Source: Methanosarcina barkeri MS
Lineage (GTDB): Archaea > Halobacteriota > Methanosarcinia > Methanosarcinales > Methanosarcinaceae
DNA: 64,000 nt
NCBI RefSeq assembly: GCF_000970025.1
Contig: NZ_CP009528.1
Location: 1,661,168-1,725,167, forward strand
Reading direction: 5' to 3'
Shown here piece after piece: positions 5,997 to 25,053 of the stretch. The stretch's first letter is position 1. The number at the start of each line of letters is the position of its first letter. The translations under genes were made by a program, and so were the position numbers. A model generated the notes under the pieces. It saw only the letters and a list, made by a program, of their open reading frames with translations, was not told the origin of the DNA and did not search any database.

Positions 5997-6394
5997 TTCA
6001 GAAAAGTTCAGTTAATTCAGAAAAGTTCAGTTAATTTTGAAGAATCTGATGATTCAAAATCCAAATTCTTTTGTCCAGCACACCACATTCAGCTTGAAAA
6101 GAAGAACTCTGTCTTTTCGGCTCTGTAAGTTATTTTTTAAATTAGTTTTCGTAAGTTCTATTTTGCAAGTTGGTTTTTGTAAGTTATATTTTGTAAATTA
6201 GTTTTACTGAAAAACTTTGAAGGTAGAGGATAAAGTTCCTCAATTTTAAGTTTAGTTTTTTATGACTAATCAAAATTTGTGGTTGGCTGGACAACCATTG
6301 AAATTTGGCATTTTTCTATTATTTGACATTTTTCTATTTTTACTAAATTATGGAAAGTATACATTACATTCTTGAGAGCGATACCATTAAGTAT
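5986..6394. repeat. Gap with 19-bp triplicate and AT-rich decay repeats
   Basis: The metX stop is embedded in three near-perfect copies of AAAGTTCAGTTAATTCAGA (about 5986-6036). Further on (6126-6200) a degenerate GTAAGTT..TATTTTG motif recurs. I see no gene in this stretch. The last part holds the XRE promoter and a weaker copy of its operator (about 6350-6369, ATGGAAAGTATACATTACAT). Confidence 0.8.
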
Positions 6395-6436
6395 ATGGAA
6401 AGCTTACTTTCCATAAATGGAAAGCTTACTTTCCAT
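6395..6436 (+). promoter_or_regulatory. Twin identical operators of the XRE repressor
   Basis: Two identical 20-bp inverted repeats, ATGGAAAGCTTACTTTCCAT, occupy 6395-6414 and 6417-6436. Centre spacing is 22 bp. Each has arms ATGGAAAG/CTTTCCAT. They lie directly before the Shine-Dalgarno sequence (6440-6444) of the small HTH gene, so autoregulation is the simplest reading. A third degenerate site lies at about 6350-6369. Confidence 0.75.
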
Positions 6437-6452
6437 TAAGGGAGATCCCAGT

Positions 6453-6665
6453 TTGAAAAATAGGCTGGAAATATTACGAAAACAAAAAGGAATCAAGCAG
6501 GAAGAACTCGCTGAAGCGCTGGAAGTTTCCAGGCAAACAATAGGTTCTCTAGAAAATGGAAGATATAACCCGTCTATCATTTTAGCCTTTAAACTTGCCA
6601 GATATTTCAACACTACAATTGAAGAAATCTTCATTTATGAGGAGGAAAAAAATGATAAAAATTAA
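6453..6665 (+). CDS. XRE-family (Cro/CI-like) transcriptional repressor
   Basis: This is a 70-residue single-domain helix-turn-helix protein (KQEELAEALEVSRQTIGSLENGRYNPS) followed by FKLARYFNTTIEEIF, typical of small YozG-type XRE regulators. An ATG at 6417 is in frame, but it lies inside the operator and has no ribosome site. The TTG at 6453 has GGGAG about 8 nt upstream and gives the family-typical start KNRLEILRKQKGI, so I prefer it. The gene overlaps the next gene by 14 nt, forming a two-gene unit. The target is likely the twin palindrome at 6395-6436 (inference). Confidence 0.88.
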   Translation: MKNRLEILRKQKGIKQEELAEALEVSRQTIGSLENGRYNPSIILAFKLARYFNTTIEEIFIYEEEKNDKN

Positions 6666-15243: not shown

Positions 15244-15767
15244 AATAGTCCCCGAAAATTGCGTTTTTCGTTAATTTGTTAAATAGTATTAGATTAAGCA
15301 CCTGATGATTTCAAGCGTGACCAGAGCTTAGCAATGTAAATTTTTGCTATAGCAAAGAAGTAACCAGAGCTTAACAGCGTAAATACTTGCTATAGCAAAG
15401 AATGATTCTCACAGCAAAGCAGTATGATAATGCAATGTCTGGTATGTTGAAAGTATATTTTACATATAAAGTATTATTTGAGAAAATATTGCACGTATAA
15501 AGCAATTACTTGAGAAGATATTACATGTATAAATAGCAATTACTTAAAAGGAAATAAAAAGAAATAAATACCTTAGAAAACAGGCTGTTGATTTAAACTC
15601 AGCATTTTTCTTATTTTGTCTCCTTTTTGTTTTAACTATTACTTTTGTTTTAACTATTATTTTTGTTTTAACTATTATTTTTGTTTTAACTATTATTTTT
15701 GTTTTAACTACCATTTTTGTTCTAACTATCATAAATCTATCTCAAACACTCAAAAATACCTAAATCC
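15244..15767. repeat. Gene-free gap with 18-bp tandem repeat
   Basis: The upstream region of abce1 contains two imperfect copies of AACCAGAGCTTA..TGCTATAGCAAAG (15310-15410) and duplicated TTACTTGAGAAGATATT stretches. At 15628-15730 an 18-bp unit TTTTGTTTTAACTATTAT repeats about six times. No gene is supported. Confidence 0.8.
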
Positions 15768-22398: not shown

Positions 22399-22665
22399 TC
22401 AGAGGATCTTATCGAGTTCCGATGCCAGTACACTACCCTGGGTAACCCCCATGAAGCGCTTTACTTCAGCCCCATCTTTCTGGATAATCAGCGTTGGGAC
22501 AGCATGTATGCCGTATTTGGAAGCCATTTCCTGGTTTTCATCCACATCGACAACTTTGAACTCAACTTTATCCCCGTACTTTTTCTCAAGCTCTTCAAGA
22601 ATTGGTTTTTGCATCCTGCAAGGTCCACACCATGTTGCGGAAAAGTCCAATAACATTGGTTTCAT
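22399..22665 (-). CDS. trxA: Thioredoxin/glutaredoxin-like protein
   Basis: A small thioredoxin-fold disulfide reductase with active site ATWCGPCRM and the cis-Pro segment HAVPTLIIQKDG. A frame start at 22707 is possible (102 residues), but the ATG at 22665 has AAGGTGA five bases upstream and yields the usual compact fold (88 residues) beginning KPMLLDFSATW. Likely electron donor for cytoplasmic disulfides. No reductase gene is adjacent. Confidence 0.9.
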   Translation of the reverse strand: MKPMLLDFSATWCGPCRMQKPILEELEKKYGDKVEFKVVDVDENQEMASKYGIHAVPTLIIQKDGAEVKRFMGVTQGSVLASELDKIL

Positions 22666-22895
22666 AAAATCACCTTTATATTTTGAAATGTCTGAGAATT
22701 TCTCCATTTTTATTTAATCCATTCCGGGAAGCATACAGAAGAGTCGTACACACACTGTCTCAAGGGCCTGTACGACAAAGCTGCCGGAAACCCAATCCTG
22801 ACGATAGGCGACATGAAAGCTGGATTTACCAAATACAGGGTCGGGACTCAATAATTGTATATTATCTTCGATGATGTGAAATAATTTTTCATATA

Positions 22896-23055: not shown

Positions 23056-23665
23056 TGAGATCGATACTATCCATTGAAACTAAATTGGATAGAATTGAAA
23101 TAATCGCAAATATTATATTATTTTATACTATTCTGATAATGGTTTGAAAGTGCTAGTTTGTAAGTGTTTTTTTCCATACCAGAGGGCTCTATATTCCAGT
23201 CAGAAGATAAAGCTGCTCACAAAACATCATTTATTGCTTGCGCAAGTTTGTAGTTTTTTGGATTCGATTCATAATACTTCGTTTTTGTAGCCGGTCTAGT
23301 TGGGCAGAAACTAAAATCGGTAGTTTGCCAAACGTAAGTAAATCTATTCTATCATCAAAGGTTTACCAATTTTTTAAAATTATTGATAATAAGAAAGAAT
23401 TATTCTATTGTTATTATATAAAATATAATTATATTTATGTTTATGCCCATGTAAGTTGAGGTCGAATATTTTCACTCAAATAAAAGGGAAAAAAATTAAT
23501 CATTTCGAAAAATAGCTGGCGTGGGTGTATTACAGGATTGAGGAGGCTAAAGTTGAATTTGATCAGATGGTTGCATTCTGATCTTAATAAGTTCATCTTC
23601 TCCAGTATGCAGCGCAAGTGCTAAAAACGTAGAAAGGAAATCGTAAAACTATGGAGGCAAATATA

Positions 23666-23863
23666 ATGGGAGGATATCCATTCTTTAAACACAGGTTCGA
23701 TGGCCGTGGCGGTTGTGGTGGTTATGGCGGCTGTGGTGGTTATGGCGGCTGTGGCGGCTATGGGGGATTTGGCGGCTGTGGCTTTGGTGGCCGGTTTGGT
23801 GGCCGGTTTGGTTGTGACGACAGATTTAAAGGTCGTCGATGCGGGCACCGAAGGTACTGTTAA
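23666..23863 (+). CDS. Cys/Gly/Tyr-rich miniprotein
   Basis: The 65-residue protein starts GGYPFFKHRFDGRGG, then has a core of GGCGGYGG-type repeats (four units), then FGGRFGGRFG and an Arg/Cys-rich tail ending GHRRYC. An ATG at 23651 is in frame, but GGAGG (23653-23657) is well placed for the ATG at 23666. It has seven cysteines and no signal peptide. I do not recognise a family. A metal-binding or structural peptide, or a peptide precursor, are possibilities. The real ribosome site and the clear composition argue for a true gene. Confidence 0.6.
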   Translation: MGGYPFFKHRFDGRGGCGGYGGCGGYGGCGGYGGFGGCGFGGRFGGRFGCDDRFKGRRCGHRRYC

Positions 23864-24243
23864 GGGATCATGACTGTAGCTGTCAATAATGACGCCGAGT
23901 GTGAAATAATTAGTGTGAAATAATTATGAAATAATTATTGAGTATGAAAGGAAAAAGCATAATAACCATCTTTTCACGGCGTGATGAATAAGTCACCGAA
24001 ACTTGTTTTTCTTGAACAGATGACTACTAATTTTTCTTTTTTGGGATATACTTATTATTAGAAAGCTATTGCAGGCTCTCCAATGTAAATTCCTGAAGGA
24101 ATGAGATCTGTACTTTGTACTACGTTTATTAGTTTTACGTAATAATTCCTGTACAAAGATCAGATAACTCTAAAAAACTTTCAGTTTATTGAAGAGTACT
24201 TAAAAAGAAAAAATTCCCTATTATCAGGGAACCCATTAAGGAA
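23864..24243. other. Intergenic, no gene seen
   Basis: AT-rich sequence with a duplicated GTGAAATAATTA segment (23900-23930) and imperfect inverted repeats around the words CTGTACAAAG and CTTTGTAC near 24110-24160. Nothing coding. Confidence 0.5.
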
Positions 24244-25053
24244 TCATACATTTTTCTCGCAGTTTTTATCCTTGGGCCTACCTTTTATTATGTTGCCGAA
24301 GTACATACAGCCTTCCATTGGGATCGTTGGCATATCAGGTGACTCATTTATCATGTTTACAGGAGCACCACGGATAAGCACGCACGGCACACTTTCCCCG
24401 GCTTCTCCCATAAGGAGTTCGGCGGCCGAGACAAGGTTATCTGCTACAGCCTTGTATGTAATACGGAGAGGCCTTCCGTAGATATCGTCAGTTCCCCGCG
24501 CATCTTCCACAGGTACAAAGCCTGAAACTCCAAGTGCAATTCCCGAGCAGCCAAGCCTGAGAGGCTGGGTCCTGCTGTCTCCTATAATTACCCCTAACTT
24601 GCATGAGTAACGCTTCTCAAGCCGGCTCCTGATAATCTCGGAACTTTTTCGTGGGTCTTCCGGGAGCAGGACTACATTGCCTTCAGGGGCATTGGAAGCG
24701 TCGATCCCTGCATTCGGAGCCAGAACACCTTTTGTAATTGTAAGGGCAGCTCCGGGCACACCCCCAAAAATCTCATCGCATTCCTGAAGCACGAGTTCCA
24801 TTTCCCTGGGATCGATCCCGTACTGTTCCCCAAGCACCTTTGCCTTTTCGCCCGGAGTCACGCTTGCAAGCCTGACGATTCTTCTTTCCGCAGTACCAAC
24901 TGCAGATTCTGCAAGTACGAAAATATCCCCGTCAATGGGGACAAGCCCTGCTTCCTCCAGAGCCTTATCTAAAATCTTTACGATATCATCCCCTTCCCTT
25001 ATAATAGGGGTCTTAATCCCAAACATCTGGATGGAAGTATTTTCTGAACTCAT
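24244..25053 (-). CDS. cofE: Coenzyme F420-0:L-glutamate ligase
   Basis: CofE adds glutamates to F420-0 with GTP to make F420-2, the hydride carrier of methanogenesis. Motifs are GIKTPIIREGDDIVKIL, FVLAESAVGTAERR, TITKGVLAPNAGID, LLPEDPRKSSE and IIGDSRTQPLRLGCSGIA. The length of 269 residues is near the family norm of about 250. It has its own upstream region of 350 bp with AAAGATGT-type repeats. The function is established for the family. Confidence 0.95.
   Translation of the reverse strand: MSSENTSIQMFGIKTPIIREGDDIVKILDKALEEAGLVPIDGDIFVLAESAVGTAERRIVRLASVTPGEKAKVLGEQYGIDPREMELVLQECDEIFGGVPGAALTITKGVLAPNAGIDASNAPEGNVVLLPEDPRKSSEIIRSRLEKRYSCKLGVIIGDSRTQPLRLGCSGIALGVSGFVPVEDARGTDDIYGRPLRITYKAVADNLVSAAELLMGEAGESVPCVLIRGAPVNMINESPDMPTIPMEGCMYFGNIIKGRPKDKNCEKNV

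Follow-up and report, generated by a model that had tools for sequence, protein, structure and literature searches.

We examined a 64,000-nt stretch of the Methanosarcina barkeri MS genome (the window; G000:C2:1661168–1725167) in which a sequence-only reading had picked out a small Cys/Gly/Tyr-rich protein of 65 residues. Judged by its conservation, the protein is the product of a real archaeal gene, and its open reading frame (ORF) is one of a family of cassettes in Methanosarcina that share a promoter and a 5′ leader RNA. We are nearly certain that this family is real, and it is apparently undescribed so far; no such cassette family was found in the open-licence literature. Box, leader and Shine-Dalgarno-led small ORF are all present at window positions 23400–23863, a copy that was itself among those used in defining the family. 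A bolder reading, to which we give slightly less than an even chance, is a modular peptide regulon, in which a conserved frame of promoter, leader and 3′ region would carry exchangeable aromatic/Gly/Cys-rich peptides; the mixture of peptides, self-assembling or membrane-active, would be particular to each species and accompanied by a secreted Gly/Tyr-repeat protein. G000 denotes the genome of the window, other G numbers the compared genomes, and L numbers loci.

The promoter pairs a box, TTATTCTA, with a TATA box, TTATATAA, at a spacing that is fixed across cassettes. The exact pattern TTATTCTA-N6-TTATATAA occurs at four sites in the whole G000 genome, all of them 5′ of cassette ORFs: three in one cluster (C2:1297093–1300107) and one in the window. 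Allowing one mismatch adds no site, and 34 sites differ from the pattern at two positions; for the reversed pattern, taken as a control, the numbers are 2 sites at up to one mismatch and 37 at up to two. Among the 51 exact boxes listed across the genus, 43 lead directly into a leader hit, and four of the remaining eight are W-type units with a visible leader helix (P1, described below). The upstream DNA of the window gene (23380–23560) matches that of its orthologs and also further sites in the same genomes; these sites are grouped about 1.2–1.4 kb apart, and the tiny ORFs that stand there in tandem are rich in Gly, Cys and aromatic residues.

The 5′ leader is about 200 nt long, and start codons lie about 210–330 nt past the TATA box in most units; from promoter and position we infer that the leader DNA is transcribed. 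Using an alignment of 27 chosen leaders (A3, W-type leaders left out), RNAalifold predicted a helix, P1, with 14 pairs identical to those marked by hand, 10 of them with compensatory changes. The cells of P1 are paired in 93.6% of cases, compared with 31–53% in slid versions, and its covariation score was matched by none of 500 shuffles, a count that gives no probability because the leaders are related. When arms were swapped among 48 leaders, the native value of −18.5 kcal/mol compared with −11.1 kcal/mol for swapped arms, a difference that is biased because the arms had been chosen as best native pairings; the test excludes six of 54 leaders, including those of G001, G016 and G007. Through P1 the cassettes show what marks a cis-regulatory leader RNA, a conserved, covarying structure in the 5′ leaders of related genes.

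A search of the genus with a covariance model of the leader (R1) gave 90 hits in 26 of the 30 Methanosarcina genomes at E ≤ 0.1; G018 is counted on a single hit (E 0.099), and the weakest of the other hits may be chance. Genomes with a leader have one to seven hits, each then followed by different small ORFs. In a sample of 99 genomes of the order, searched with stricter filters at E ≤ 0.01, R1 matched none of the 94 genomes outside the genus and four of the five within it. Compared with Rfam release 15, window positions 23300–23900 and six cassette loci all fell far below the gathering score.

To count the ORFs behind the leaders we used 80 of 105 R1 hits, excluding those at overlapping loci, on the opposite strand or scoring under 29 bits. 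A Shine-Dalgarno-led ORF of at least 15 residues lies within 30–420 nt after 77 of the 80 leaders (the others are L192:5344, L169:511 and L186:1414), and 51 of these first ORFs have a Phe+Trp+Tyr+Cys fraction of at least 0.30. Such an ORF followed 226 of 2000 random AT-rich sites in the window, and four of these reached that fraction. With a stricter Shine-Dalgarno rule the counts were 75 and 52 of 80 leaders, compared with 115 and 0 of 2000 random sites. Taking the first Shine-Dalgarno-led ORF picks some wrong frames, for example at L172 and L179. The four products in G000, the window protein (0.308) included, have Phe+Trp+Tyr+Cys fractions of 0.31–0.52; 65 masked control ORFs have a mean of 0.134 and a 95th percentile of 0.324. 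Since its 0.308 compares with this percentile of 0.324, the window protein stands out less by aromatic residues and Cys than by Gly, which makes up a fraction of 0.415, compared with about 0.05 in control ORFs. The masked ORFs replace an earlier composition control that contained unmasked W-type cassettes, and above whose 95th percentile 14 of 77 family ORFs lay.

The products are mostly 20–85 residues long and differ widely in sequence; most are rich in Trp, Phe or Tyr, and Gly and Cys are frequent. They comprise (a) a Trp-rich type (MWFGNCGWGGCGGWGG..), (b) a type of the form MGGFPFFKKFDGCGC..CCITAVRACKIKG..GWW (alignment A2, 16 sequences), (c) the window type, (d) aromatic peptides such as MVFSYYYSRVCWYYEKVCFFMKVCY and MGFFSLYYNKIIAYYESTQLYIWAGWD, several of which occur as two near-identical copies per leader, and (e) others, such as MCFFFFRFICIRIRCCVPRFYWRCC. 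A search with A2 matched 12 of the 30 genus genomes and, in an order sample of 119, three genomes, all Methanosarcina; a scan of genome contigs with A2 gave one locus, in Methanosarcina spelaei MC-15. Genome contigs scanned with the single window protein gave no relative, and there were no matches in viral contigs or PDB chains (with A2) or in phages (with window DNA). At curated cut-offs, Pfam-A and NCBIfam matched neither the window protein nor six paralogs, one of which gave sub-threshold matches only, to Toxin_12 and LINC-PINT.

Many units stand in tandem near an mptE-like gene, which is found in the cluster locus taken from 16 genomes (it is partial in G012); the window holds a dispersed copy. 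In G000 the genes flanking the main cluster encode, by Pfam, an MptE-like protein, an inorganic pyrophosphatase and a PAS histidine kinase. Second, partial mptE-like stretches lie in or near clusters at L043:3040–3486, L113:8815–9033 and L121:4173–4448, and may be left over from the duplication that gave rise to the tandem arrangement. At L170, L171, L180, L121 and L118 a single leader stands before a tandem pair of peptides that are identical or nearly so, and each of the two has a Shine-Dalgarno sequence of its own. In G012 (L168, about 1428–1900) a secreted-looking protein with tandem ASGEGTCAEKGNVM repeats stands behind a cassette.

Purifying selection on the window ORF is indicated by comparison with its orthologs. 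A protein search of 59 genomes (30 Methanosarcina and 29 others) matched six, all Methanosarcina (G000, G028, G001, G016, G020 and G023), and an ortholog in G013 was added through a match to the promoter DNA and then its ORF. In each of the six other genomes the locus lies between thioredoxin and cofE genes; this includes G020, where the ortholog has decayed (L010, about 6300–6570): its start was lost by deletion and its tail is shifted, while its neighbours and the 3′ region remain. Six of the 30 Methanosarcina genomes have an intact copy. The start codon is ATG, but GTG in G028, indels within the ORF are multiples of three, and the ratio of nonsynonymous to synonymous substitution rates (dN/dS) is 0.20–0.25 in pairwise comparisons with G000 and 0.08–0.42 over all 15 pairs of the six copies. 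The suggestion of a genuine small protein is thereby borne out; conservation in relatives, whose absence the sequence-only reading had named as telling against the gene, was looked for and found. A chance low-complexity ORF can hardly be the explanation: Gly-codon repeats do readily give open frames, and 23 of the 30 genus genomes have neither an intact nor a decayed copy, but the conservation, a dN/dS of about 0.2, the shared promoter and the covarying leader already contradict it.

The translation contains 27 Gly, 9 Arg, 8 Phe, 7 Cys and 5 Tyr residues and has a basic C-terminal part whose last residue is Cys, so that the seven cysteines and basic Cys-terminated tail reported earlier are confirmed, and the likening of the composition to structural, metal-binding or natural-product peptides is right as a description. 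Four GGCGGYGG units had been reported; the repeat exists, and the motif occurs three times, overlapping, at residues 15, 21 and 27. The 4.2 copies found by Tandem Repeats Finder (TRF) may be what was read as four. The G+C (GC) content, said to be well above the surroundings, is 0.56 in the ORF; the 500 nt before the ORF have 0.32 and the 380 nt after it 0.31, so the statement holds against flanking intergenic DNA. The next gene, cofE, has 0.50, so the contrast reflects coding sequence (Gly codons) against AT-rich intergenic DNA. The ribosome site that had been called well placed is conserved. An in-frame ATG farther upstream (23651) is probably not the start because it is ACG in two orthologs; this upstream ATG is not conserved.

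The ORF lies in a long intergenic region between a thioredoxin gene (22399–22707, minus strand) and cofE (24244–25053, minus strand). By Pfam, the five neighbours scanned are a metallo-β-lactamase (MBL)-fold protein, DUF1699, thioredoxin, the F420 ligase CofE and MTHFR; none is a modification enzyme, in agreement with the sequence-only reading. Elsewhere in the window, the ORF at positions 15544–15732 consists of a short repeat, Val-Lys-Thr-Lys-Ile, and may be a simple tandem repeat between genes.

Downstream of the ORF is a region that is conserved in other cassettes. Searched with nhmmer (E ≤ 0.01) against the window and 57 loci, among them orthologs and loci that overlap, it gave 45 hits; 40 of the 45 have a leader or box within 1 kb upstream and five do not. 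A hairpin followed by a T-run can be drawn in the 3′ regions of several paralogs but finds no support in covariation: RNAalifold found no pairs in the 3′ region, the drawn pairs vary mostly on one side, and the window hairpin is no more stable than its shuffles (z −0.82). The intergenic stretch past this region (24057–24205) is conserved among orthologous loci only. Unrelated peptides are framed by similar leaders and 3′ regions, which would fit an RNA being what the cassette chiefly makes: a regulatory RNA of dual function, its 5′ and 3′ domains conserved and its short ORF present mostly for the sake of RNA stability or regulation. We regard this as improbable, given the purifying selection on the window ORF, the strong conserved Shine-Dalgarno sequence before it and a biased composition that is kept across products.

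Table 1. Elements of the window cassette, in window coordinates
Element	Position	Strand	Details and basis
Promoter: box TTATTCTA (23400–23407), 6 nt, TATA box TTATATAA (23414–23421)	23400–23421	+	Pattern count in genome
5′ leader RNA	23437–23562	+	Covariance model R1 match, 65.7 bits; window leader is one of the 27 rows building R1
Leader helix P1, left arm	23444–23457	+	A3 columns 11–25; predicted near transcript 5′ end, start site inferred
Leader helix P1, right arm	23514–23527	+	A3 columns 86–101; 13 of 14 pairs standard in window copy
Second leader part, possible helix P2	23539–23630	+	Weak: 5 pairs, 3 with compensatory changes, −0.11 kcal/mol
Shine-Dalgarno sequence GGAGG	23653–23657	+	8 nt 5′ of ATG; GGAGG or GGGGG in intact orthologs
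Small-protein ORF, Gly/Cys/Tyr/Phe/Arg-rich	23666–23863	+	65 codons plus stop; translation, orthologs, in-frame indels, dN/dS
18-bp tandem repeat within ORF (GGCGGY units)	23707–23782	+	TRF, inexact copies
3′ region common to other cassettes	23915–24045	+	nhmmer; sequence conservation only

What the peptides do is a more tentative matter, and we propose a putative structural or self-assembling role as a possibility, with the balance somewhat against it. Their sequences change while their composition stays constant, a pattern that fits selection acting on the properties of a material and not on an active site; the constant composition, Gly-aromatic repeats, Cys residues and lack of a predicted fold together favour a self-assembling material. 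A regulator reading the TTATTCTA box would switch the cassettes on together, the leader helix might tune mRNA stability or translation, and peptides would be made from the strong Shine-Dalgarno sequence; Gly-aromatic stacking, with Cys cross-links or metal bridges, would drive their self-assembly. The assembled peptides could be the material of a coat, a matrix or an intracellular condensate.

Tiny hydrophobic tandem peptides behind a folded leader instead favour toxin-like or membrane-active peptides. The products would then correspond, in archaea, to type I toxins or to leaderless bacteriocins and phenol-soluble modulins; the folded leader would restrain translation until a trigger, and the membranes of the cell itself or of competitors would be disturbed. 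The tiny ORFs, the long structured leader and the tandem copies are as this would have it, and several mRNAs carry two near-identical peptides; the family was found only in Methanosarcina and is strongly divergent, and many products are hydrophobic or aromatic with a few basic residues. We nevertheless think it unlikely, because the Gly/Cys-rich products, the window protein included, do not resemble membrane helices, no immunity or transporter gene is among the eight G000 neighbours scanned, and the predicted fold leaves most of the window Shine-Dalgarno sequence unpaired. Some 6 kb past the cluster in G013, however, lies a transporter-like ORF (L129:2692–3933, read by eye).

The seven Cys residues of the window protein, a CCITAVRACK motif conserved in paralogs and the adjoining thioredoxin gene would suit thiol or metal proteins, whose Cys-Gly chains would bind Fe-S, Zn or Cu or buffer redox. 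Yet just two of the seven Cys are invariant in five aligned orthologs, the thioredoxin gene is divergent from the ORF and has no counterpart among the scanned neighbours of the main cluster, and several leader-controlled products have no or one Cys and many aromatic residues (MGYFTLYYSNYKVVYERTKLYMRARW, MYIENFVILLSQKFKVIFNDWF). We therefore hold this explanation to be improbable, and metal binding as the sole role, one of the possibilities raised at the outset, is weakened by those members that keep many aromatic residues with 0–1 Cys. The other early suggestion, a precursor of a peptide natural product, is not supported. Small Cys/Gly-rich peptides with a conserved N-terminus, MGG(F/Y)PFFK, and a variable middle do recall precursors of ribosomally synthesized and post-translationally modified peptides (RiPPs). 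Against this, no precursor family of NCBIfam or Pfam matched, and the eight neighbours scanned at the window locus and the main cluster, the rest of the genome not having been searched, include no maturation enzyme, protease or transporter; a RiPP origin seems to us very improbable.

The bolder reading, a modular peptide regulon, extends to a secreted protein. One G008 leader precedes a 113-residue protein that has a signal-peptide-like N-terminus and Gly-Tyr repeats and no Pfam match, and relatives of this protein occur in 23 of the 30 genus genomes (E ≤ 0.001). All ten Gly/Tyr-repeat loci examined (L196–L205) have a related box, with one to three mismatches, 120–328 nt upstream. The G000 member is at C2:712778–713104 (L201), and its box, at C2:713297, is one of the 34 two-mismatch sites. 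A Gly/Tyr-repeat family in the regulon would be a lead towards the cell envelope, not proof of a role there.

Several observations weigh against the proposed reading of the cassettes as co-regulated genes for self-assembling peptides. At the Gly/Tyr-repeat loci, gene-strand leader hits at E ≤ 1 are found in five of ten, one strong (35.1 bits) and four weak, similar-scoring hits also lie on the opposite strand, and the loci are themselves interrelated, with three-mismatch boxes for which there is no chance control. Of the 80 leaders, 29 have a first ORF below 0.30 Phe+Trp+Tyr+Cys or no ORF, and four of the 65 masked control ORFs reach 0.30. An earlier alignment of 51 leaders that included the W-type had almost no consensus structure (−4.5 kcal/mol). 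A survey of pairing in 54 leaders placed the strongest pairing at another position in G007 and in one leader of G020, and it showed P1 to be missing or weak at the G001 and G016 orthologs of the window gene: the G001 leader (L008, 9154–9313) lacks the P1 right arm beside an intact ORF, and that of G016 pairs poorly. With P1 lost or poor beside the gene, the leader is not indispensable at these two orthologs. AlphaFold gave no usable model of the window protein alone (mean predicted local distance difference test score, pLDDT, 43.6). No signal peptide was recognisable in the cassette products, by eye and with no predictor run, so an extracellular coat would need some further export route; and some short products, such as MVFSYYYSRVCWYYEKVCFFMKVCY, look membrane-active rather than structural.

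Known proteins of similar composition differ in kind. The YjcZ family sporulation proteins of Bacillaceae (PF09680) are likewise tiny, with a Gly/Cys/Tyr-rich N-terminal part; the window protein lacks the hydrophobic segment by which Pfam recognises YjcZ. The sole plasmid DNA matches of window positions 23385–24050 are 60 nt in two Priestia megaterium records, in YjcZ genes. Homology to YjcZ_2 (PF09680) was rejected: the window protein matches no Pfam family up to E 10, whereas a real YjcZ scores 5.7e-12, there is no meaningful protein alignment, and the DNA match is a Gly-codon repeat. High glycine-tyrosine keratin-associated proteins are, in the excerpted source, also small Gly/Tyr-rich multigene proteins of a structural material; they are animal hair proteins, alike in composition only, and no homology is suggested. 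Nearer to the cassettes, Ribo-seq of M. mazei, as given in the excerpted report, indicates that small ORFs are widely translated and unannotated ones common, and includes sORF_06, a predicted cytoplasmic standalone protein with four Cys (PMC11456600). It concerns the same genus, but the excerpted text describes no promoter-leader cassette family (PMC11456600).

The cassettes comprise about 90 leader sites, mostly followed by a tiny ORF of unassigned role. Because such peptides are too short and biased for sequence searches, their genes can be found by promoter and leader. Genetic tools exist for Methanosarcina, and the covarying leader, found in 26 of 30 genomes of the genus and in none of 94 sampled elsewhere in the order, makes a directly testable regulon. 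To our knowledge, few examples of structured leader RNAs or of co-regulated small-protein families are known from archaea, and we know of no archaeal counterpart to a system with a conserved RNA frame and an exchangeable peptide. In bacteria, the type I toxin mRNAs (hok, ldr, tisB) have a short ORF behind a long structured leader and occur as tandem paralogs. The cassettes share the short ORF, the long structured leader and the tandem paralogs, but are archaeal, and many of their products are Gly/Cys-rich.
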